Source of the DNA: a virus
Reading direction: 5' to 3' (one strand)
Length of the DNA stretch: 64,000 bases
Virus record (IMG/VR): IMGVR_UViG_3300050821_009430
Coordinates: 1 to 64,000 of that record
The notes under the pieces are model-generated. The model did not search any database. It was given only the letters and a program-made list of their open reading frames with translations, and was not told where the DNA came from. How positions within the stretch are numbered: position 1 is the stretch's first letter; every line of letters begins with the position of its first letter. Of this stretch, positions 1-22,077 are shown in pieces. A program made the position numbers and the translations under genes.

Positions 1-336
1 CTCCGGGTAAAGTACCGAAATAGGTGTGCCGGAAGGCCGCTGCTGAGCATTTTGCTGAAACTGTGCCCATTGCAGTGCAAAACGCCGTTTATCTACATCG
101 TTAGCGGGACGTTCAACCACATTCAGGCGCTCGCCGGGGGCTGCAATACGCACATAAGGGATATCATCAAAAATCTGACGGCCCTCCTCACGGGATTTGA
201 GGGCATTGTGCACCGGACGCATATAGAAAATAGCGTGAGTGTCTTTACCCTGTGCATATTCCACCGTCCCAACCGTGCGGTCGGCATTGTTCCAGTTAAT
301 CCCAGTATGCGGTTGCAGTTCACCCATGTCACTCAT
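1..336 (-). CDS. conserved phage protein, head module (partial, runs off left edge)
   Basis: An open frame of 112 codons starts with ATG at 336-334 (MSDMGELQPHTG) and is still open at base 1. GAGGAG lies just upstream and the start overlaps the preceding stop as ATGA. The stretch reading YVRIAAPGERLNVV followed by DKRRFALQWAQF resembles a conserved protein seen next to capsid genes in many prophages. Its function is not known to me; its position suggests a virion or head-to-tail role. The C-terminus lies outside the window. Confidence 0.7.
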   Translation of the reverse strand, partial: MSDMGELQPHTGINWNNADRTVGTVEYAQGKDTHAIFYMRPVHNALKSREEGRQIFDDIPYVRIAAPGERLNVVERPANDVDKRRFALQWAQFQQNAQQRPSGTPISVLYPE

Positions 337-1805
337 ACCCTAAACTCCTCTGATATTACTGCCGAAGGCACGTACTTACGGCTTGGTTTTCCAGCCCATG
401 CTGTCTTATCGGCCATTTTAATTCTGCGCTGATCCGCCAGTTCACGCAATGCAGATGTCATTCTCTCTAGAACTTCTTCCCAATCGTGGGGCTTCTTCTG
501 AGTGAATAACTGCATGGTAGGATACCACGGCGTAGTGTCGCGGTCCATGAGCCACCGCCAGCAAGCATCATAGCGGCTCAATAGCCATGTAGGCTTGCCC
601 AAACCCCCCGCTACATGGGCTACTGATGTATCTACCGTGATCACAAGATCAAGGCATTGGATCAGTGCCGCTGTATCGAAGAAATCATATAGATCGGCTG
701 TCCAGTCACCAATAGTCATGCCCGGCAAGCCACCTTTTATCTGTTCTTTGGCTGGCCCCAATTGTAACGAGACCCATGAAATGCCTTTAAGCTGAGCCAG
801 TGGGGCAAACTGCTGTAAAGACATAGAACGACGTGCATCAATAGAACTAGCCAACGGATCGGCATCACGGTTCATGCCTGCCCAACACACCCCCACCAAC
901 AAACCGTCAGGCAGCGCCTTTAGGCGATCCCGCCAAACCGAAGCGCGGTAATCATCGTATGGAAGGTACGGGCATTCAGCCGGTATAGTTTCCAAAGTAA
1001 TACCAAGCACGCGGGGCACCGAAAGCATCGCAATACATGATTTGATGCCAAGCGGCGGCTTCTCACCTAACGTGATAATGCCATCAACGCCATCAACGCC
1101 ACGCAACAGCCGCGTCAACGGGTGCACTACCTCCAAATAAACCTTGCCACCCCATTTGGCTTTGGCCTGCTTGGCAAAACGGCAGAATTGCAAAACATCC
1201 CCCATGCCCTGTTCGCCGTAGATCAACAGAATATCTTCTGGCCGTGTTGCTGCTTCGCCCGCCCATATCGGGTAACCAAAACCACGCGGTTTCATGACAG
1301 GGCCTTGCCACCGCCATTCAAATTCTTCAAAGCCTTCCTTGAGAAGGCCCAAGGTCAATAATGCCATCGCTTTGCCCAAATGAGCATTGCCGTAATCCGG
1401 TTTTATCTTAATAGCGGTGTTGTATGCTTCAAGCGCTTCTTCAACACGACGCATCCGCATCAAGGCATTTGCTTTATTGTTCGGTATTTCTGGTATCTTA
1501 TTACTTCTACGGAATGCCCGTTTGAAGTCATCAATCGCTTTATCAAATTGTTCTAAATCCAAATAGGCCGCGCCCCGGTTATTATAAGATTCGGCAGAAT
1601 CAGGCACCAAAGCGATGGCACGGTCGTAATTCAGCACCGCATCAAACGGGTGGCCCAAACCTTGTAACGCAGCCCCCCTGCTGTTCCATGCCGGGGCAAA
1701 ATCAGGTTGCTTGAGTAGAGTAGCATCGAGAAATAACATTGCCTCACGTAACTGGCCTTTGGCTTGAGTGGCCAAAGCTTTGGTAAAAGACTCCCTGAAA
1801 TCCAT
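333..1805 (-). CDS. TPR-repeat protein with GT-B-like glycosyltransferase domain
   Basis: This 490-residue protein has an N-terminal array of tetratricopeptide repeats (about residues 5-165; recurring patterns such as AYNTAIKIKPDYGNAHLGKA) and a C-terminal domain like the ADP-heptose:LPS heptosyltransferase/SPINDLY group. Segments LLIYGEQGMGDVLQF, VGVCWAGM and VITVDTSVAHVAGGLGKP are the nucleotide-sugar-binding signatures of that fold. It probably transfers a sugar to a protein or glycan; acceptor and donor cannot be read from sequence. The start at 1805 is chosen because GGAG lies about 9 bases upstream; an in-frame ATG at 1817 has a poor ribosome site. It is preceded by a terminator, so it may be expressed at a reduced level relative to the capsid genes. 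With the sugar genes at 14-22 kb it suggests glycosylation of virion or host surface. Confidence 0.8.
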   Translation of the reverse strand: MDFRESFTKALATQAKGQLREAMLFLDATLLKQPDFAPAWNSRGAALQGLGHPFDAVLNYDRAIALVPDSAESYNNRGAAYLDLEQFDKAIDDFKRAFRRSNKIPEIPNNKANALMRMRRVEEALEAYNTAIKIKPDYGNAHLGKAMALLTLGLLKEGFEEFEWRWQGPVMKPRGFGYPIWAGEAATRPEDILLIYGEQGMGDVLQFCRFAKQAKAKWGGKVYLEVVHPLTRLLRGVDGVDGIITLGEKPPLGIKSCIAMLSVPRVLGITLETIPAECPYLPYDDYRASVWRDRLKALPDGLLVGVCWAGMNRDADPLASSIDARRSMSLQQFAPLAQLKGISWVSLQLGPAKEQIKGGLPGMTIGDWTADLYDFFDTAALIQCLDLVITVDTSVAHVAGGLGKPTWLLSRYDACWRWLMDRDTTPWYPTMQLFTQKKPHDWEEVLERMTSALRELADQRRIKMADKTAWAGKPSRKYVPSAVISEEFRV

Positions 1806-1817
1806 TCTACACTCCAT

Positions 1818-13454: not shown

Positions 13455-13838
13455 CTAGTTGGAAAGACCTTCAACAATTCGCAGCGTGGTAGTGCTGGTA
13501 CTGGTTATGGCCGCCACATACCAACCTGCTGCATTAGGCGTGGGATTTGGCACCGTCAAGGTTACCGAAGTATTTCCCGGCAACGAATAATTACTGGTGG
13601 TAGCGGCAGTATTTGAAGCACTGCCAATGTTATAGAAAAGTTCCTGTGACGATATATTGTAAAGAATAACACTGGGGCCGCATCCAGAAAGCTGAACATT
13701 CCCCGAAGACCCGCTAACTGACAAAGTATGTGCGGAACAAGGAGCCATCCCAGTAGGTGGCTGCTGTGCCCAAGAAACCTGGATACATGAAAGAGCAGCA
13801 ACTAGAAGGGCTAAAATAAGTCTGCCCGTCATATTCAT
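13455..13838 (-). CDS. exported small protein with signal peptide
   Basis: The 127-residue protein starts with a clear secretion signal: RLILALLVAALSCIQVSWAQ with likely cleavage after VSWA. The mature part is rich in Ser, Thr, Asn and Val, with two Cys. Its ATG overlaps the TGA of the cold-shock gene (ATGA), so the two are translationally coupled. A phage gene for a periplasmic or surface protein may act on entry exclusion or envelope; role unknown. Confidence 0.7.
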   Translation of the reverse strand: MNMTGRLILALLVAALSCIQVSWAQQPPTGMAPCSAHTLSVSGSSGNVQLSGCGPSVILYNISSQELFYNIGSASNTAATTSNYSLPGNTSVTLTVPNPTPNAAGWYVAAITSTSTTTLRIVEGLSN

Positions 13839-14080
13839 GATGTTGCCTTTTCGTCTTTTACTTTGACTTCCGTAGCGTAGAGGCCTTTTGGGCCTTTGAC
13901 AGCGGCAAAACTTACCTGAAGGCCATCGTTGAGCAGTACAATGCCTGACTTTCTTAATTCTTTTATGTGAACAAAAATATCCTGTTTTCCATCCGGCAAT
14001 GTGATAAAACCATAGCCTTTTTGCGGATCAAACCATTTCACACGGCCTTCTGAGGGAAGAACTTCACCTTCCATAGACAT
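13835..14080 (-). CDS. cold-shock domain protein (CspA family)
   Basis: Eighty-one residues forming a single cold-shock domain. RNP1 is KGYGFITL and RNP2 is DIFVHI; the RVKWFDPQKGYGFI stretch is diagnostic. These proteins bind single-stranded RNA or DNA and melt secondary structure. GAGGT stands before the ATG. A phage copy could aid translation of structured late mRNAs, such as the intron-bearing capsid transcript; that link is a guess. Confidence 0.9.
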   Translation of the reverse strand: MSMEGEVLPSEGRVKWFDPQKGYGFITLPDGKQDIFVHIKELRKSGIVLLNDGLQVSFAAVKGPKGLYATEVKVKDEKATS

Positions 14081-14167: not shown

Positions 14168-14890
14168 TCAATCAGCCAGCCGATCAAGTATTATGGCCCT
14201 ACGTCCCTGCTCCAATTCGTGAAGCTTATGGCCTGAGCTAATATAAGAATTTGATCGCATCAATTGTAAACGCTCATTCAGCCGTTCTGGTTCCAAAACT
14301 ACCGAGAAATTAAAGCTATCGTGAAACATGAAATGCTTGGACCACACCGCTGGACGTGCACATTCGAATGAAAACCGTGAGGCAAGCTTCTCAGGAGCCC
14401 ATTTGAAGCCATTTGCTTCCAACTTAGGCCGGTAAACGCGGCCTAGTACTTCGTCCTCCTTAGCTTTAACTGGAAAAACGTCACGATTCTTAGATAAAAA
14501 CTGCATAAGCTTGTTGGAACGCACACCAAGACCGTTTCCTACATTAAAACCATCGTCATGCCACCATGGAGCACCGATAAAATCATATTTCAGATACTCG
14601 TCCGACCACTGCCCCGCATCAATCACCCACCCATCCCATTCAATACTCAAAAACCAGGGAGTTTTTACGAACTTATGCTGTTCATGCCAAAAGAAAGTAC
14701 AGTGATCCAACAATGTAGACCATTTCGGCACCTTTACCCATTCAGTTTTCGGTATATTCAGGTCAATATCCGAAAAAATAAGTGTATCTTCAGGTTCAAT
14801 AAGTGCCAAAGTGTCAAGAACAGCTAGACGAGCCAATTCAGGGCACAGAACATCACGCAAAACCAGTGTCACGCCCGGCAGTTTTAGCAT
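14168..14890 (-). CDS. DUF5672-type glycosyltransferase-like protein
   Basis: The 240-residue protein carries FLSIEWDGWVIDAGQWSDEY, then YDFIGAPWW and VGNGLGVRSNKLM, the core pattern of DUF5672, a family annotated as glycosyltransferase-like and often found in phage and polysaccharide loci. ATG at 14890 shares a base with the stop of the upstream gene, so translation is probably coupled. It is the last of three adjacent sugar-transfer genes. Confidence 0.75.
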   Translation of the reverse strand: MLKLPGVTLVLRDVLCPELARLAVLDTLALIEPEDTLIFSDIDLNIPKTEWVKVPKWSTLLDHCTFFWHEQHKFVKTPWFLSIEWDGWVIDAGQWSDEYLKYDFIGAPWWHDDGFNVGNGLGVRSNKLMQFLSKNRDVFPVKAKEDEVLGRVYRPKLEANGFKWAPEKLASRFSFECARPAVWSKHFMFHDSFNFSVVLEPERLNERLQLMRSNSYISSGHKLHELEQGRRAIILDRLAD

Positions 14891-15756
14891 CAACCAGCAC
14901 GCCAAATTGAGAACATGTTCCTGTTTATTTTATTGTGAGAATGTTCTGAATTGAAAGCATCTTCAAACTCTCTACACGGCTGCATTGGGGGAAAATGAGT
15001 AGCAGGGTTTGTCAGTTCGGCCAGAAAAAACCCATCAGACGAACCAATAACACGCTGCCGGCCCGCATCGGCTAGAACGGCGGGCCACCGATGATCCCAA
15101 GAATCACCGCCGAGTGATTCTAAAAATACAATATCTGCTTCGGTGAAACGTGCCAAGTAAGGCGTTGGCAAAAGATGGCACACGGCATAATGCCCTGGAA
15201 CTGGAAGCTTCCTTAAAGTGTGGCCAGATTCAGGGGTATTAAGCATAGACTGGTCAGGATCACATTCACGCCAAACCCTATGCAATACAGAAAGTGCCAA
15301 ACTGACCAATTGGGGATTGGCTAAAACACCTTCAGGCAAAGCTTGTAGAAAAGGTTCATGCTCTACCCGCACATGCGGGGCCAGCACACACAAATCAGCC
15401 CTGTTACCGGCCATGGCAATCAGGTTAGGCAATGAGCCATCCCCCCAAAACGAGTCAGGTGGGGCCATTATCATCGTGGCTTTGGCTGAAAAACATTTCT
15501 TTGCTTCAGCAATCAGACAACGGTGCAATACATCAGAAACCCCACCGCTCAAATCAATGAAATTAATCTCAAGGCTGGCATGCAGTGACATAATCGATCT
15601 AATTTGTTCTTCATTTTCTCTCAATGTATAGATAGACCACAGCACCCCTGCCGCAACACTGGCATTAAGTGGCTGACGCAGCAAAGAACGCAATGTTATA
15701 TTGTTAAATAGCTTGCAGAAAGCATCCCCGTAAACAACAGAGAAAATTCTTATCAT
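14890..15756 (-). CDS. glycosyltransferase-like protein
   Basis: A 288-residue protein starting MIRIFSVVYGDAFCKLF, like the N-terminus of GT-A style enzymes, with a possible metal/acceptor segment MAPPDSFWGDGSLPNL. Length and flanking glycosyltransferases support a role in sugar transfer. I do not recognise a named family, and a DxD motif is not clear. Confidence 0.55.
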   Translation of the reverse strand: MIRIFSVVYGDAFCKLFNNITLRSLLRQPLNASVAAGVLWSIYTLRENEEQIRSIMSLHASLEINFIDLSGGVSDVLHRCLIAEAKKCFSAKATMIMAPPDSFWGDGSLPNLIAMAGNRADLCVLAPHVRVEHEPFLQALPEGVLANPQLVSLALSVLHRVWRECDPDQSMLNTPESGHTLRKLPVPGHYAVCHLLPTPYLARFTEADIVFLESLGGDSWDHRWPAVLADAGRQRVIGSSDGFFLAELTNPATHFPPMQPCREFEDAFNSEHSHNKINRNMFSIWRAG

Positions 15757-16896
15757 CTATAACCCCAGATCCTTCAAAACCTGAGCGCCCCGGTGTTCCC
15801 ACAAATGCTTCGCAGCAATAATCTTGCGGCTCTCTGCAATTGCAAATTCACGTTCCTGCATATTTTTCAACCAAAATTTGGCATGATCAACAAAGTTATC
15901 TGAAGTAAACTCACCAAAATGAACATTTGGCTCAAAATATTCGTTCATCAAGCCTATTTTCGGTTCACCGCTAACAACGTGGGTCATGATGAAACCGCCA
16001 ACAGCCATAGCCTCAAGCACCCTTGAGTGTGGGCCAAAACCATGAGAATTCGTGTGCAGGTTTATCTTGGACGAAGAATATACCCCATAAAGTTCTTTCT
16101 CGTCCTTCGTATGAGGGGCAGATACCTTAGCAAATTCAGGATATTTATTCCAATTATTACCTTGAAATAGACAATTATCTGAAACTGTCAAAACCATCGA
16201 TGCAAGAAGAAACCTGTCGGCCCGGCGTGGGTGGTCAATGATCCAGTAACCCACCGCCTCAACTATTCTACGCCACGCCTCCTCAACCTTATCAATTTCA
16301 TGATCTCTGCTTAAGGTCTCAATAAAAGCCGCCCGCAGCGGCTCCATAAATAGGTTACCCCGCAAGCTGCCACTCAGCGGCTTGTATATCTTATCCATTT
16401 CGTTATGACAAAAAATCCCAAATGACACAGGCCCGGGCCAACGAATATCAGGAAACTCAAATTGTTCTAACGGTGGTGGGATGTACCCACAAATTGAAAT
16501 ATCGATACTTGGTTGAGGAATAGCATAAGTCAAAAGTTCTTTATCAACCCCCGTCAAAAGTACACCATCCACCCATTTGGCTGGCAGCCCCAGAGCATCA
16601 GAATCGGCCATGGCATAGATCAGATCATTCTTACCCTTGCGCTCACCGTAATAGGGCGTAGTGCCAGGGCGGAAATCCTGTACCCAGGCAATGTGCAGAA
16701 CACCCGCCGGGAGCCAACCGGGGCGCGATCTGTTTATGTCAAAAACAATATCGTGTTGTCGTAAATTTCCAATTGTGTATTCCATAGGGGGCAGCAACGT
16801 GACTTGGTGCCCGGCCCCGGCAATAGCCCCGGACAAACGGCGCAGCATGCGCCAATCATAGGGATTGTCTTCGGCAGGGGTAAAAACAAAACGCAT
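15757..16896 (-). CDS. GT-B glycosyltransferase
   Basis: The 379-residue protein begins MRFVFTPAEDNPYDWRM and ends in a CgeB/Glyco_trans_1_2-like domain: INLHTNSHGFGPHSRVLEAM followed by AVGGFIMTHV, the donor-binding signature. The start at 16896 avoids overlap with the upstream gene and begins the first beta strand; an in-frame ATG at 16926 is possible. It likely transfers an activated sugar, perhaps made by the genes upstream. Confidence 0.78.
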   Translation of the reverse strand: MRFVFTPAEDNPYDWRMLRRLSGAIAGAGHQVTLLPPMEYTIGNLRQHDIVFDINRSRPGWLPAGVLHIAWVQDFRPGTTPYYGERKGKNDLIYAMADSDALGLPAKWVDGVLLTGVDKELLTYAIPQPSIDISICGYIPPPLEQFEFPDIRWPGPVSFGIFCHNEMDKIYKPLSGSLRGNLFMEPLRAAFIETLSRDHEIDKVEEAWRRIVEAVGYWIIDHPRRADRFLLASMVLTVSDNCLFQGNNWNKYPEFAKVSAPHTKDEKELYGVYSSSKINLHTNSHGFGPHSRVLEAMAVGGFIMTHVVSGEPKIGLMNEYFEPNVHFGEFTSDNFVDHAKFWLKNMQEREFAIAESRKIIAAKHLWEHRGAQVLKDLGL

Positions 16897-16900
16897 TGCA

Positions 16901-17263
16901 CTATAATCGATTCCTTGCGGTGGCATCAAAGCCTTTTACGGCATTGAATTGATCCGTGTGCACCGTAATTGACGTAGGGTCGCCCCGTAATGCCTCAAGC
17001 ACCGCCCAATCGTCTGTGCGTTGCAGCAGCGGCATATCAGGGTCGCCGGCCCCTTCTTCGTCTCTGTACCCCTCAAACATTTCTACAAAACCAAGCACAG
17101 TTTGAACATAAGCCGGGTCCATACCCAGCTTCTTTGCTTCCTCTGCATAGGCCCTGAGCGCAGCCGGTGCAGCCGGGTCACGCGCACCCAATACAAAATG
17201 TGGCCATTTCGGAACTGTTGCATCCCTGCGAACAACAAGATACTTGCTGGACAACTGAGCCAT
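16901..17263 (-). CDS. conserved small protein
   Basis: The 120-residue protein has KYLVVRRDATVPKWPHFVLG and ARDPAAPAALRAYAEEA, a pattern I know from small proteins of alphaproteobacterial phages. No catalytic motif is visible. It sits two bases after the next small gene in the leftward operon. Confidence 0.65.
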   Translation of the reverse strand: MAQLSSKYLVVRRDATVPKWPHFVLGARDPAAPAALRAYAEEAKKLGMDPAYVQTVLGFVEMFEGYRDEEGAGDPDMPLLQRTDDWAVLEALRGDPTSITVHTDQFNAVKGFDATARNRL

Positions 17264-17264
17264 T

Positions 17265-17579
17265 TTACTTTCCTTTTTTCAGTGCGGTTTTTGCTCGATT
17301 ATAAAACAGAGACTTTTTGTGCCGAAGAATATGTGAAGCATAGGCCCGTAGGTGTGCCTCTGACAGCACAATTTCAGATGATTGGCCACGCCGGGGCGCT
17401 GACATGCTCTTGACGGCCCGCACAAGTGACTGAGGGAACCACCAACTTTCGTTTGTTTCAAAAATCCAGCAGTGGAACTCTGACATGGTATCAATTGAAT
17501 CTGATACCCACATAAGATCGGCTTCCGCTTCACCAAGCGGCGTCAGCAATATTTTTTCAATGTGGACTATTTCAGGCAC
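17265..17579 (-). CDS. hypothetical small protein
   Basis: One hundred and four residues with a Trp-rich middle (CWIFETNESWWFP) and a basic C-terminus (RHKKSLFYNRAKTALKKGK). Not recognised. Gene spacing of one to five bases on both sides places it firmly in the operon. Confidence 0.6.
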   Translation of the reverse strand: MPEIVHIEKILLTPLGEAEADLMWVSDSIDTMSEFHCWIFETNESWWFPQSLVRAVKSMSAPRRGQSSEIVLSEAHLRAYASHILRHKKSLFYNRAKTALKKGK

Positions 17580-17584
17580 AGCAC

Positions 17585-18142
17585 TCAGCGATATTCTTTG
17601 GCATATTCAACAAGAACCGTACTGCCCTTGGCTTCGAATGCGTTCTGATACGCTGACACAATCATGCCTGCATCAATCAATCTTACAAGAGCCGTAGTTC
17701 GAAACATGCGCCTGAATGCTTCGGTGAAATCGGCGTCATGCTGGGATTGCGGATTGAAAGGGTGCGAACTGGGGGCAGCTACCCTGATAATGACCTTGGG
17801 CCAATAACCGCCACTAGAATACAACGGAATACGATCAAGATGATTAACAAGCTGATCGGCTGCCCGCAACATGAAGTTCCATCTTGGAATAATACAAACC
17901 GGAACATAACCGTTCAGGCTCATGCCAATACACATGCCCATTTGCATTTCTTCGGCCACTGGCATTTCAATACGCTTGTCAATAGGCACACCCGTCAAAG
18001 AACTACTTAGCGCCGTGCCCTCACAGCCAACACCCTGACCAAAGAACATCACTCGTTCCTGCTGACCAAGCCACGTCATGGCCCGGCTTAGCTCACCATT
18101 ATAGCTCACGGTTCTCCCGAATAAGCTTCCGTACAAACTCAT
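17585..18142 (-). CDS. E1-beta-like pyrimidine-binding half of a TPP enzyme
   Basis: The 185-residue protein matches the pyrimidine-binding domain of E1 beta/transketolase proteins. EMPVAEEMQMGMCIGMSLNG holds the Glu that activates the thiamine cofactor; FFGQGVGCEGTALSSS is the early segment. It lacks the C-terminal transketolase domain of full E1 beta (usual length about 330). The ATG at 18142 overlaps the stop of the alpha-like partner (ATGA), so the two subunits are made together. Reaction unknown; presumably a 2-keto or ketose substrate. Confidence 0.8.
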   Translation of the reverse strand: MSLYGSLFGRTVSYNGELSRAMTWLGQQERVMFFGQGVGCEGTALSSSLTGVPIDKRIEMPVAEEMQMGMCIGMSLNGYVPVCIIPRWNFMLRAADQLVNHLDRIPLYSSGGYWPKVIIRVAAPSSHPFNPQSQHDADFTEAFRRMFRTTALVRLIDAGMIVSAYQNAFEAKGSTVLVEYAKEYR

Positions 18143-18732
18143 TGCATGTGAACCCAACGGCCACTTCCGACATGCGGATAAGATAATTCATAATGGTATC
18201 TGCGAACGTTTATATCGTGATTGCCACCCCACACCGCTTTGGTATCGGTAGCTACCGACTTGCCATTGTCCTCGACAATAACGACCAAGGGCAAGTCATG
18301 GCCGCGTGCATAGCGAGTGCACTCGTGCACAATGCCTGACATCGCCGCCATATCGCCAATGAAGCAATAGACCTTGTCACCTTTACCGTCACGCTTAGCG
18401 GCCCAAGCCAGCCCCAGCGCCACCGGCACTATGCCCCCTACCATGGCTGAACAAATCACACGCTGTTGGGGAAAGCACAACGCAATGGAACGGCCTTCAA
18501 GAATGGCAGCTTTGAGTTCTTCAGGGGGCACACCCTTCAAGAGGCAATGCAGGTGGCTTCGCCAAGTCCCACCTACCCAATCGTTTTCTTTTATATTGTC
18601 AAATATGTCAATCAGGGTTTGCTCATTGCCCCCGCCCAAATGAACCGGGGCCTTGATCTTACCCGCATTGAATTTGGCAACAATATCTGCTTCAAACGCC
18701 TTCAGCGTTTCAACCGTGTGCCCGGTATCCAT
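18139..18732 (-). CDS. E1-alpha-like TPP-binding half of a TPP enzyme
   Basis: The 197-residue protein has the E1-alpha layout: TWRSHLHCLLKGVPPEELKA, SAMVGGIVPVALGLAWAAKR and the cofactor motif GDM...EDN (residues about 127-156). The motif is normally GDG; Met replaces Gly. It is much shorter than pyruvate dehydrogenase E1 alpha (about 320-360). With the beta-like gene it should form one TPP active site. No E2 or E3 partner is nearby, so a free decarboxylase or transketolase-like reaction in sugar synthesis is more likely than a dehydrogenase complex. Confidence 0.8.
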   Translation of the reverse strand: MDTGHTVETLKAFEADIVAKFNAGKIKAPVHLGGGNEQTLIDIFDNIKENDWVGGTWRSHLHCLLKGVPPEELKAAILEGRSIALCFPQQRVICSAMVGGIVPVALGLAWAAKRDGKGDKVYCFIGDMAAMSGIVHECTRYARGHDLPLVVIVEDNGKSVATDTKAVWGGNHDINVRRYHYELSYPHVGSGRWVHMQ

Positions 18733-19856
18733 TACAAAAATTCCATATGCGGGGGCTGCGGCTCGTTTGAAAAGGCCACGGTGCCTTTCATGAATTTATC
18801 CAGCCAAGAATTAGTGTTCGTCTGCAAACAATTAGGCCCGCAAGATTTCTGTGCATCAAATTCATCGGAGCCAAGATACCTGATCACTTCCCAGTAACGG
18901 TCACTGGCCCAAATGTCTTTGAACCGTGTGTCGCAGATATTCCCAATATGAAATTTTTTGTACTTTTCGTTAAAAAGGAACCCACAGGGGGCCACAAGAC
19001 CGCTACCGGATACCTGAAGAATAAACGGAGGGCCATAACAGCGCTGATAGTCACGTTTGCCCTCATTGACCAGCCTGCCCCACTTCACACTCACCCTGAA
19101 AGTATCGTCTGTATAGGTTTCAATCTCACGAAACTTATCTTCAAGTGCGGCATACTTAGAGTAATCAACGCCAAGCTGCCCCTCCACATCATCAGCACAA
19201 TGCTTGATGACCAAATAATCGGGCCTAAGGACATCACGACAAAGCTTGGCCAACGGTATGATTTCATCCTCGTCTTCAGGCATACAAACCATCTGGACAT
19301 TAATATTGACCGGCAAATTATCGCGGTGCTTGATTGCCATGGCATCCTTGATGTTCTGAATAACACGATCAAAGAACACCTTATTCAAACCCATGGTTTT
19401 GGCGTAGCCCTCACGGGTGCCTGCACCAAAATGAAAGCGCAAATAGCTGAGACACGGCAGCAACCGTTCCAACACCACCTTGTTCAGCACCACGCCATTG
19501 CTGGAAGCGCCAGTGGCAATGCCAAGCGCATGAGCATATTCCACAGCCTCAAGATAGTTCTTGTGCACCGTAGATTCGCCATCGCTGATAAATGAAATGC
19601 CCTTGACACCAATCTCGGCCGCATCTTCAAGAAAGTTGAACACCACTTCCTTGGTCTGATACTTGCGCTCGTTTTCCTGAAGCATGGCGTAGCAACACCG
19701 GCAGGAAGCCTGACATTCTCTCGTCATGGCATAATCAATGGTGATAGGAGCTATTTTTTCGCCGCGTTGCCATGCCAAAACTCTATCTTTATACCAGCCT
19801 ACTTTGGTGCCATCAATGATAAGCTGCTTGGTGAAATCCTGTGTCTGTTCGCTCAT
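18732..19856 (-). CDS. radical SAM protein with SPASM-like C-terminus
   Basis: The 374-residue enzyme has the 4Fe-4S cluster motif CQASCRCCYA (C-x3-C-x2-C, about residues 49-56), GISFISDGEST as the SAM-contact region, and a C-terminal Cys set (CGFLFN, CGPNCLQTN) like SPASM auxiliary-cluster domains. Such enzymes do radical chemistry on sugars or peptides. It sits between the TPP pair and the sugar isomerase genes, which points to modification of an activated sugar or carrier. Substrate unknown. Confidence 0.85.
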   Translation of the reverse strand: MSEQTQDFTKQLIIDGTKVGWYKDRVLAWQRGEKIAPITIDYAMTRECQASCRCCYAMLQENERKYQTKEVVFNFLEDAAEIGVKGISFISDGESTVHKNYLEAVEYAHALGIATGASSNGVVLNKVVLERLLPCLSYLRFHFGAGTREGYAKTMGLNKVFFDRVIQNIKDAMAIKHRDNLPVNINVQMVCMPEDEDEIIPLAKLCRDVLRPDYLVIKHCADDVEGQLGVDYSKYAALEDKFREIETYTDDTFRVSVKWGRLVNEGKRDYQRCYGPPFILQVSGSGLVAPCGFLFNEKYKKFHIGNICDTRFKDIWASDRYWEVIRYLGSDEFDAQKSCGPNCLQTNTNSWLDKFMKGTVAFSNEPQPPHMEFL

Positions 19857-20041
19857 ATGGCATCGTCTTTCTTCAATTTCTGCCGGGGCTTGTTCTGATC
19901 GCGCATCGTATCCATGAACACTTCGGCGCGCACACCAAGCATCTTTCTGGCTAAGCGCTCAACCTCAAGCAAGAACGACCCCTTGTCAATGCCGTGGAAA
20001 CCTTCGCCAAGAAACTTGATATTGATCGGGTAATCAGACAT
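19853..20041 (-). CDS. small protein coupled to radical SAM gene
   Basis: The 62-residue protein (MSDYPINIKFLGEGFHGIDK) has a helix with acidic and basic faces (FLLEVERLARKML). Its stop overlaps the start of the radical SAM gene (ATGA), and its own start has GGTGA upstream. Tight coupling suggests it is a partner or carrier for that enzyme, but there is no clear carrier motif. Confidence 0.55.
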   Translation of the reverse strand: MSDYPINIKFLGEGFHGIDKGSFLLEVERLARKMLGVRAEVFMDTMRDQNKPRQKLKKDDAI

Positions 20042-20042
20042 T

Positions 20043-20186
20043 TCAATCACCATAGATGCCATACCGAGGGCCACATTCAAGGCACACACCGCCTATAAAA
20101 TAAATTAGAAGAAATGGAAACCAGAACCCGCGCACACCGGCTATGACCATGCCAACCGCACAAATTATGGCAAAAGGCTTTCTCAT
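20043..20186 (-). CDS. small membrane protein (47 aa)
   Basis: The frame MRKPFAIICAVGMVIAGVRG continues with FWFPFLLIYFIGG and ends at TGA 20045-20043. It has two hydrophobic stretches. Its ATG overlaps the stop of the isomerase gene (ATGA) and its stop is one base from the next start, so it fills the gap exactly. No family recognised. Confidence 0.55.
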   Translation of the reverse strand: MRKPFAIICAVGMVIAGVRGFWFPFLLIYFIGGVCLECGPRYGIYGD

Positions 20187-20755
20187 GCCGCTATTTCTTT
20201 ACTTCGTTTTTCTTCCATGAGAGCATCACACACCGCATGTAAAAGAATACTGTGAGCCAGTTCAACGCAGCCGTAGCTTTCCGACGGCACATAAAAGCTT
20301 ATATCGCCAATGATGCGTAACTTGTTGTGTGGATGGAAGCCGGTAAAGGTCATGACAAACATCCGCTTCTCATGCCCGGCTTTTGCCGCCTGAATAATAT
20401 TTCGTGAAGCACCTGAACTTGAAATAGCAATTAAAATATCGTTCGGTCTGCCGTGACATTCAACCTGCTTGGCATAAGCTTCGTCATAGCCAAAATCATT
20501 GGCTAAGCAGGTCAATGCCGAGGGATCGGAAAGCACCATGGCCCGCAGCCCGGCATTTTTCACAAGGTCAATCACAACGTGACTGGCAATGGCCGAGGAA
20601 CCGCCATTGCCAATAACCAGTATCTTGCCGCCGTTACCGTCAACCCAGCGAAGCAGGCTGACAACTTCACCCAATCCTTTTTCCAATGTCAGTTCGCCCG
20701 TGACCAGTGTATTGCCCACCGCCACCATAAGCGACGCAATGTAATCTTTTATCAT
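20183..20755 (-). CDS. gmhA: SIS-domain sugar-phosphate isomerase, GmhA-like
   Basis: The 190-residue protein is a single SIS domain with KILVIGNGGSSAIASHVVID, SALTCLANDFGYDEAYAKQV and ILIAISSSGASRNIIQAAKA, the signature of phosphoheptose isomerase GmhA and close relatives. GmhA converts sedoheptulose-7-phosphate to D-glycero-D-manno-heptose-7-phosphate. Length fits the family. ATG at 20755 overlaps the HldE-like stop. Pairing with an HldE-like enzyme supports a heptose route; a different phosphosugar substrate cannot be excluded. Confidence 0.8.
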   Translation of the reverse strand: MIKDYIASLMVAVGNTLVTGELTLEKGLGEVVSLLRWVDGNGGKILVIGNGGSSAIASHVVIDLVKNAGLRAMVLSDPSALTCLANDFGYDEAYAKQVECHGRPNDILIAISSSGASRNIIQAAKAGHEKRMFVMTFTGFHPHNKLRIIGDISFYVPSESYGCVELAHSILLHAVCDALMEEKRSKEIAA

Positions 20756-22077
20756 TTGAGAAGCCATTCGATGTTTTTCAAAATGTCATCGCGGCCAACA
20801 TGCTGGCGGTGACCCAATATAGCGGTTTTGAGGCCACCCGCAACATTGCCTACAAAGGCCGCCAGTTCAAGCGGCAGCCCGGCCGCTACCAGGGGGGCAC
20901 TCACGGCTAAAAACGCATCACCGGCCCCCATAGTGTCAAAGCCGGTGCTTACAAACGCGGGTATGGCAACATCACCCACCAAGCAACCGTAGCGGCCCCG
21001 CGTGATGACTATATTTTCGGTTTGCAGCCTGTTGGCAATCCGCCGAACAATCTGCGGTAATGCAATATGACGGTCCCTGACCGTCAGCATGGCTTCCGGC
21101 TCGTCCACGCAAACATAATCGGCCCGGTGATAATTGAACACACTATTGAAACCGTAGTTCCCGGCATTGGCCTGGGCCGTCACGGCAAGGAACTTTGCGG
21201 TTTGCAACGCCTCACGCTCAAGCTGACCCAGCAAGCCATGACCAAAATCAAAAGCAATGCACAAGTCAGCCTGAACAATCAGTTCACCAAGTTTCTTTCT
21301 AAAGCTGACCCGTTCGTCGGCTTCAATTTCTATTTCCCTGCTTGAATAAACCTCAAACAGCTTGCGTGAGAAATCGGCATCGACAAAACGTGTTTTGGTG
21401 ATGGTGGCAAAACTGGTAATCACTTCGGCCCCGCGCCACTCACCGTGCTTGGCGGCGGCCCGCACCCCACCATTGAACTTTTCCGTGTTGGTGCCTACCA
21501 CCGCAAGGATAAATTCCTTTGACGGCTTGGCCAAAGGCTTCACGTAACGGTATTCGTCTATGACGGTTTCACCTATAAAGGCTATCTTGAGTTTATCCGC
21601 CCTTTCAAATGCCTGAAGAATATCTGGCAGGTATTTACGCACACCTTCAATATAGGCCAAGGCAGCATCGCTGAGTTTGACGGTACGCAATAGTTCGGTT
21701 GAGGACCACTTTTCGGCGGTAGTGATATGAAAGCTGCCGCCAATCAGCTCCACCGCCTCACGTTCAATGGCCAGATAAGGATTATCGGTATTGGCATAAT
21801 CGGGGCCTTTGACGTAAACCGCAGGCTTGATTTTATAGATAGAATCAACCGCCGTGCCGGTTTCACTGATAATCACTTCGTCCACACATTCCAGCGATAA
21901 TAATGCTTCGCGGCGCTGCTCGGCGGTGAAGTGCGGCCTACCGGGGCCTTTATTGACGTGGGCATCGCAGGTGATGCTGACCACCAGCCGGTCACCCAAG
22001 GAACGGGCTTCCGTCAAATGACGGATATGACCCAAATGCAATAAATCAAAACAGCCATGGGCTAGAACGGTATTCAT
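20752..22077 (-). CDS. bifunctional nucleotidylyltransferase/PfkB sugar kinase, HldE-like with swapped domains
   Basis: The 441-residue protein starts with a cytidylyltransferase-like domain (AHGCFDLLHLGHIRHL, the HxGH motif, residues about 6-21; VYVKGPDY) and ends with a ribokinase/PfkB domain (FNGGVRAAAK, NIVITRGRYG, GFDTMGAGDAF with the catalytic Asp). HldE of E. coli has kinase first and transferase second; here the order is reversed. It would phosphorylate a heptose-phosphate-like sugar and activate it with a nucleotide. ATG at 22077 overlaps the stop of a tiny membrane gene; a longer in-frame start at 22155 would add a hydrophobic leader and is unlikely. Confidence 0.83.
   Translation of the reverse strand: MNTVLAHGCFDLLHLGHIRHLTEARSLGDRLVVSITCDAHVNKGPGRPHFTAEQRREALLSLECVDEVIISETGTAVDSIYKIKPAVYVKGPDYANTDNPYLAIEREAVELIGGSFHITTAEKWSSTELLRTVKLSDAALAYIEGVRKYLPDILQAFERADKLKIAFIGETVIDEYRYVKPLAKPSKEFILAVVGTNTEKFNGGVRAAAKHGEWRGAEVITSFATITKTRFVDADFSRKLFEVYSSREIEIEADERVSFRKKLGELIVQADLCIAFDFGHGLLGQLEREALQTAKFLAVTAQANAGNYGFNSVFNYHRADYVCVDEPEAMLTVRDRHIALPQIVRRIANRLQTENIVITRGRYGCLVGDVAIPAFVSTGFDTMGAGDAFLAVSAPLVAAGLPLELAAFVGNVAGGLKTAILGHRQHVGRDDILKNIEWLLK

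Follow-up and report, generated by a model that had tools for sequence, protein, structure and literature searches.

A phage gene cassette joining a radical SAM enzyme to a two-subunit thiamine enzyme is predicted to make a carbon-branched nucleotide sugar

Carbon-branched sugars are known from a few O-antigens and antibiotics. Two classes of thiamine diphosphate (ThDP) enzyme, the YerE-like type and the alpha/beta 2-oxo acid dehydrogenase type, couple units derived from 2-oxo acids to keto-sugars and thereby form such branches (PMC12247030). The alpha/beta E1 types, found in the aldgamycin, kosinostatin (KbDH-alpha/beta, tested in vitro) and paulomycin (Plm8/9) pathways, attach pyruvate-derived two-carbon branches (PMC12247030, PMC4802897, PMC4753412). 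YerE acts on CDP-4-keto sugars, and Plm8/Plm9 and AviB1/B2 are, like it, examples of sugar branching (PMC4802897, PMC4753412). Here we describe a cassette containing an E1-like pair in a stretch of viral DNA of 64,000 nucleotides (the window), positions 1 to 64,000 of the 78,457-base virus record IMGVR_UViG_3300050821_009430. AviB1/AviB2, Plm8/Plm9 (Pau11/Pau12) and KbDH-alpha/beta (alpha-KADH2) resemble the window's pair in being two-subunit E1-like ThDP enzymes that serve a sugar pathway and have no E2. Likened by their descriptions, they differ from the window's subunits, which are reduced, phage-borne, and partnered with a radical S-adenosylmethionine (SAM) enzyme and a bifunctional nucleotidyltransferase-kinase (NT-kinase). 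The cassette is very probably a dedicated sugar pathway, and we predict, on balance, that it makes a nucleotide-activated, carbon-branched sugar. Phage-borne sugar-nucleotide genes and ThDP-branched sugars are each of a known kind; no paper on the whole gene combination seen here was found in the literature searched.

The cassette genes all lie on the minus strand of the phage genome, in a single direction, and start/stop overlaps at several junctions, including the E1-beta ATG over the E1-alpha stop, indicate an operon-like arrangement. Transcription runs from the NT-kinase through the SIS isomerase, the open reading frame ORF78, the radical SAM enzyme, E1-alpha, E1-beta and two small open reading frames (ORFs) to a glycosyltransferase, an ORF without a family and a DUF5672 gene. 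The NT-kinase frame is open to 22155, and its start is taken by homology at the ATG at 22077.

20752..22077, minus strand: HldE-like bifunctional nucleotidyltransferase (N-terminal) and PfkB sugar kinase (C-terminal), from rfaE_dom matches, alignment with the Azospirillum oryzae protein, and motifs
20183..20767, minus strand: GmhA-like SIS-domain ketose/aldose phosphate isomerase, from a TIGR00441 match and conserved motifs
19853..20089, minus strand: ORF78, the small partner, whose homologue is the C-terminal domain of a bacterial protein of about 360 residues encoded before the radical SAM gene; without CxxC and without a Pfam or NCBIfam match
18732..19856, minus strand: radical SAM enzyme, with CX3CX2C and four further invariant cysteines, a SPASM Pfam match and a predicted fold
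18139..18732, minus strand: minimal E1-alpha (ThDP diphosphate-binding domain), with a GD...N motif and a C-terminal HxG
17585..18142, minus strand: minimal E1-beta (pyrimidine-binding domain only), with the catalytic Glu and without a transketolase-C domain
15757..16929, minus strand: glycosyltransferase Glyco_trans_1_2, from a PF13524 family match
14890..15756, minus strand: ORF without a family match, between the two glycosyltransferase-like genes
14168..14905, minus strand: DUF5672 protein, a possible glycosyltransferase, from a domain match

The enzyme classes named in the initial annotation of this DNA are all present by domain or family match. Its count of three glycosyltransferase-like genes holds for the two with domain support (PF13524 and DUF5672) and fails for the third, at 14890-15756; the small gene at 19853-20089, which it overlooked, belongs to the gene set.

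The association of these genes was followed by scans whose only query was a radical SAM protein alignment, which gave a sample of 143 loci, consisting of 63 viral contigs and the best 80 of 131 bacterial loci. The radical SAM gene recurs in these loci at 45-83% identity, mostly beside the same partners, and the bacterial loci come from Alphaproteobacteria (including Pelagibacter), Elusimicrobia, Omnitrophota, Planctomycetes, Myxococcota, Marinimicrobia and others. Neighbours were counted by tblastn, as an ORF-based map miscalled high-GC genes. By this count, bacterial and viral loci respectively carry the NT-kinase in 54/80 and 46/63 cases, E1-alpha in 51/80 and 38/63, and the SIS isomerase in 28/80 and 38/63. 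The background of E1-type matches in 15 bacterial genomes with the cluster is about 1.25 per Mb, so that about 2.6% of 21-kb stretches would hold one by chance; the association of the genes is far above this. In A. oryzae a plasmid carries the set, within a cluster that also holds short-chain dehydrogenases/reductases (SDRs), two DegT aminotransferases and glycosyltransferases. Genes of the aminotransferase and SDR classes are common in the bacterial loci and almost absent from the viral ones. The initial annotation had proposed looking for the same gene set in host surface loci, and it is found there, in surface-polysaccharide clusters represented by the A. oryzae plasmid and the 80 bacterial loci. 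The ThDP and radical SAM genes occur consistently in such clusters and are not part of an unrelated pathway.

The strongest functional clue is that one ThDP enzyme class replaces the other at the same place. In many phages without the E1 pair, a ThDP enzyme of about 600 residues (TPP_enzyme_N/M/C) is encoded close to the radical SAM gene, often directly after it, and in 7/8 bacterial cases the start of this gene falls 11-26 bp past the radical SAM gene. The E1 pair occurs in 91/143 loci, the YerE/acetolactate-synthase-type enzyme in 20/143, and both together in none; the Fisher p value for mutual exclusion is 9.7e-11 overall, 1.2e-5 for long viral loci and 7e-4 for long bacterial loci, uncorrected for shared ancestry, and the ThDP-enzyme label changes at least five times on the radical SAM tree. 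Among solved structures the replacing enzyme matches 8rph best (E 3.6e-112), with acetolactate synthase behind it; 8rph is JanthE, a YerE-like aldehyde-ketone carboligase (PMC12188165). Homologues of the YerE-like carboligases YerE, ErwE and JanthE stand in for the E1 pair in the 20 related loci; the window itself has the E1 pair. That pair keeps GD127...N156, H187xG189, Glu69 and His140 (ThDP motif, catalytic Glu, active-site His), and we predict with good confidence that it is a carboligase acting on a keto-sugar. A different role for the pair is conceivable, in which it would act first in a transketolase-like manner to build an unusual ketose phosphate, which the isomerase and NT-kinase would then activate and the radical SAM enzyme trim. 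E1 and transketolase share a fold and ThDP chemistry, the SIS enzyme requires a ketose phosphate, the split PP/PYR subunits resemble split transketolases, and there are weak matches to transketolase and DXS. However, the sequence is clearly E1-like rather than transketolase-like (the E1-alpha profile has its best match in pyruvate dehydrogenase E1-alpha, at 5e-26, far better than transketolase, at 4e-8), and the class that replaces it decarboxylates 2-oxo acids and moves no ketol groups between sugars. We therefore regard the transketolase-like role as unlikely.

Relatives of the E1 pair also occur in other phage settings. Like the window, the cyanophages S-SM2 and P-TIM68 carry nucleoside diphosphate (NDP)-sugar genes, with a fused form of the window's E1 next to kinase and nucleotidyltransferase genes; there the fused E1 follows a Zn-alcohol dehydrogenase gene, and the window's radical SAM family was not found in those regions. 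Three S-SM2 genes (locus L012, 21989-22300, 23630-23959 and 23919-24296) are probably misannotated, judging from their translations: the 'phosphoheptose isomerase' genes read like short HAD hydrolases (DxDxT) and one 'nucleotidyltransferase' like a cupin. In loci L004 and L008 a B12-binding radical SAM gene comes before an E1 relative and a GHMP kinase gene after it; in L004, DegT and SDR genes lie on that downstream side too. Such a redox or radical enzyme beside E1, in S-SM2, P-TIM68, L004 and L008, fits the need for a keto acceptor. A relative of the E1 pair beside a B12-binding radical SAM gene recurs in L002, L003, L005-L008 and L004 (331-6040) and forms a second radical SAM/ThDP sugar cassette. 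In the huge phage LR756501 (735 kb; L014 8379-10585), a distant relative of the radical SAM gene sits between split E1-beta and E1-alpha genes, and L102, L103, L104, L153 and L156 have two radical SAM genes of the superfamily, one about 60% and one about 28% identical, around an E1-like gene. Pelagimyophages likewise carry NDP-sugar genes, and their 'radical SAM cassettes' have been noted without interpretation (PMC7029224). Pairs of radical SAM and ThDP enzymes are commoner in phages than the initial annotation supposed.

The radical SAM protein has C48, C52 and C55 (CX3CX2C) as well as C273, C291, C339 and C343 invariant in 67 sequences. Four extra invariant cysteines fit one auxiliary cluster, and BtrN also has a single auxiliary-cluster cysteine set; the protein has a SPASM Pfam match. 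The family has no assigned function in the libraries searched, and a sequence search of the protein against solved structures gave no match. Its predicted model (pLDDT 94.3, pTM 0.92) is nearest in fold to BlsE (Z 24.2, 301 aligned, 3.6 A) and DesII (Z 23.4, 336 aligned, 4.0 A), the latter also ranking top by Foldseek (E 7e-13), with SkfB and SuiB little lower in Z or level. DesII, BlsE and BtrN, radical SAM enzymes for sugar, sugar-nucleoside and cyclitol substrates, resemble the window's protein in fold at 12-19% identity: the substrate of DesII is a TDP-amino-sugar, and BtrN carries out the oxidation of a cyclitol. BlsE removes the carboxyl group of cytosylglucuronic acid (PMC3715490). As no other redox-capable enzyme is seen in the cassette of most phages, the radical SAM enzyme may be the one that supplies the ketone, an assignment we make tentatively.

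An iterated profile search finds 127 relatives of ORF78, with the motif E...D-x-[NS]-K-[LI]-R. In 111/143 loci the partner is encoded upstream of the radical SAM gene and on its strand, in 96 within 300 bp. In the bacterial form, which has no Pfam or NCBIfam match, the ORF78-like part is the C-terminal domain of a protein of about 360 residues, and ORF78 is the short phage form of this partner. In the predicted model of the A. oryzae partner (pLDDT 89.7, pTM 0.61), residues 115-256 are IscU-like (Z 12.4, rmsd 2.8, 123 aligned) and the C-terminal domain shows a weaker likeness to Nfu-type domains (Z 8.8, 73 aligned). No cysteine is invariant in 29 aligned sequences of the family, and CxxC is found in 0/127 C-terminal domains; the modelled partner looks like an Fe-S scaffold fold turned adaptor. 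We know of no dedicated IscU/Nfu-like partner for DesII, BlsE or BtrN. The two proteins might instead form a peptide- or protein-modifying pair, like those of ribosomally synthesized and post-translationally modified peptides, that is merely co-located with sugar genes: the peptide maturases SkfB (Z 23.4) and SuiB (Z 22.7) come close in fold, tied or nearly tied with DesII, and the gene before the radical SAM gene usually encodes a small conserved protein. Yet the bacterial partner, with its length and IscU-like domain, is no short precursor, BlsE and DesII stand equal or higher in the fold ranking, and NDP-sugar genes neighbour most loci, so that such a pair appears quite improbable.

The NT-kinase and isomerase belong to the same classes as HldE and GmhA of the ADP-heptose pathway, from which the window differs by reversed domain order and by scores below the curated cut-offs. 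The nucleotidyltransferase precedes the kinase, the reverse of E. coli HldE, and the protein scores 103.7 bits for rfaE_dom_II (cut-off 181.5) and 60.2 for rfaE_dom_I (cut-off 345) while conserving the HxGH and GAGD motifs; the A. oryzae NT-kinase has the same domain order at 41% identity. The SIS isomerase reaches 107 bits for TIGR00441, under the cut-off of 209, and conserves GNGGS, SxSGxS, H63 and H177. In 13/15 bacterial genomes the NT-kinase is a second copy alongside an HldE that scores above its curated cut-off. The product is therefore not ordinary ADP-heptose, and these sub-cut-off scores together with the separate bacterial HldE lead us to expect a different sugar. The whole 78,457-base record contains no SDR epimerase of the HldD class and no GmhB-type phosphatase, which bears out their absence from the cassette as first noted; the host could supply both functions. 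Plain supply of ADP-heptose for host lipopolysaccharide, with unrelated neighbours, would agree with the GmhA- and HldE-like sequences. It was rejected because the NT-kinase is a second copy in bacteria and is very unlikely, since both enzymes fall well below the cut-offs, the HldD and GmhB genes are missing, and the ThDP and radical SAM genes are consistently linked. The earlier proposal of one cassette for an unusual activated sugar is supported, and is refined here to a probable carbon-branched sugar. Despite its E1-like sequence, the pair is most improbable as a piece of a 2-oxo acid dehydrogenase complex boosting host energy metabolism, a role we rejected because E2 (PF00198) is found in 0/21 phage records, and hence no oxidative complex, the phage E1-beta lacks the transketolase-C domain, and the pair sits among sugar genes and is replaced elsewhere by a different ThDP carboligase.

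For a dedicated pathway to a carbon-branched sugar, the genes suggest the following route. The SIS isomerase would turn a ketose phosphate into an aldose phosphate, C1 would be phosphorylated by the kinase half of the NT-kinase, and host phosphatases and the nucleotidyltransferase half would yield the NDP-sugar. The radical SAM enzyme with its ORF78 partner would oxidise or deoxygenate this to a keto-sugar. The E1 pair would decarboxylate a 2-oxo acid (pyruvate is expected) on ThDP and couple the two-carbon unit to the keto-sugar carbonyl, and the adjacent glycosyltransferases would transfer the branched sugar. We infer the substrate, the order of the steps, the radical SAM enzyme as ketone source and the final acceptor. 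Several points weigh against this route. Five long viral and five long bacterial loci have neither ThDP enzyme within reach, the phage E1 subunits are much reduced relative to full-length alpha/beta pairs, and two peptide maturases rank level or nearly level with DesII in the fold comparison. SDR and aminotransferase genes, which the bacterial clusters have, are missing from most phages, so that phage and bacterial end products may differ, and the case is computational, built on gene content, active-site motifs, recurrent linkage, mutual replacement of the ThDP enzymes and predicted fold. The full proposal, which we put forward as a possibility, is a new route to C-branched sugars: a radical SAM enzyme and its dedicated IscU/Nfu-like partner without cluster cysteines would make a keto-sugar, and either ThDP carboligase class would add the branch. 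Such a route would be present in many bacterial phyla and reduced to a six-gene kit that moves between phages.

A PF13524 glycosyltransferase also lies near the cassette in some other phages, and in phage L015 a DUF5672 copy, 65% identical, follows the cassette glycosyltransferase. The tetratricopeptide repeat (TPR) protein at window positions 333-1817, which the initial annotation suggested might use the sugar, has a sub-threshold match to GT9, the heptosyltransferase family, at its C-terminus and is possibly, from its sequence, a protein glycosyltransferase near a head gene. It was rejected as a constant part of the cassette because full-length relatives occur in only 2/15 other cassette phages examined, L015 (66%) and L020 (50%). 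ORF104 and ORF120 were dropped as members, both being on the other side of the radical SAM gene in L015. A cold-shock (CSD) protein gene (window 13835-14080) lies directly downstream of the cassette.

The window has genes for a major head protein, portal, terminase, DnaB-like helicase, DNA polymerase and SbcC-like nuclease, which mark the record as that of a tailed phage. The remaining 14 kb beyond the window appear, from their translations, to hold tail and lysis genes, and a search for near-identical phage records found none. A tree built from 67 radical SAM proteins puts the window in a clade of 22 viral rows and one contig of a metagenome-assembled genome (MAG), with support 100/100; other viral rows fall among bacteria, and the gene has therefore been exchanged between phages and bacteria more than once. 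The radical SAM protein of L015 is 83% identical to the window's in a phage with no detectable relative of the window's terminase, and the phage of L020 has a terminase 71% identical to it; the cassette therefore moves between phage lineages. L030, a Rhizobiales MAG contig, carries a phage-type cassette in a bacterial bin and is sister to viral L124; it probably comes from a phage or prophage and gives a hint that the hosts are Alphaproteobacteria.

The occurrence of the gene set across many phyla, including Pelagibacter, and in phages suggests that branched sugars are far commoner than the few described cases. The exchange of ThDP classes at one position provides a direct, testable functional prediction for the radical SAM family. 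Phages may decorate themselves or their hosts with sugars so far undescribed, and the presence of a kit of their own suggests that sugar branching serves them in recognising surfaces or in protecting the virion.

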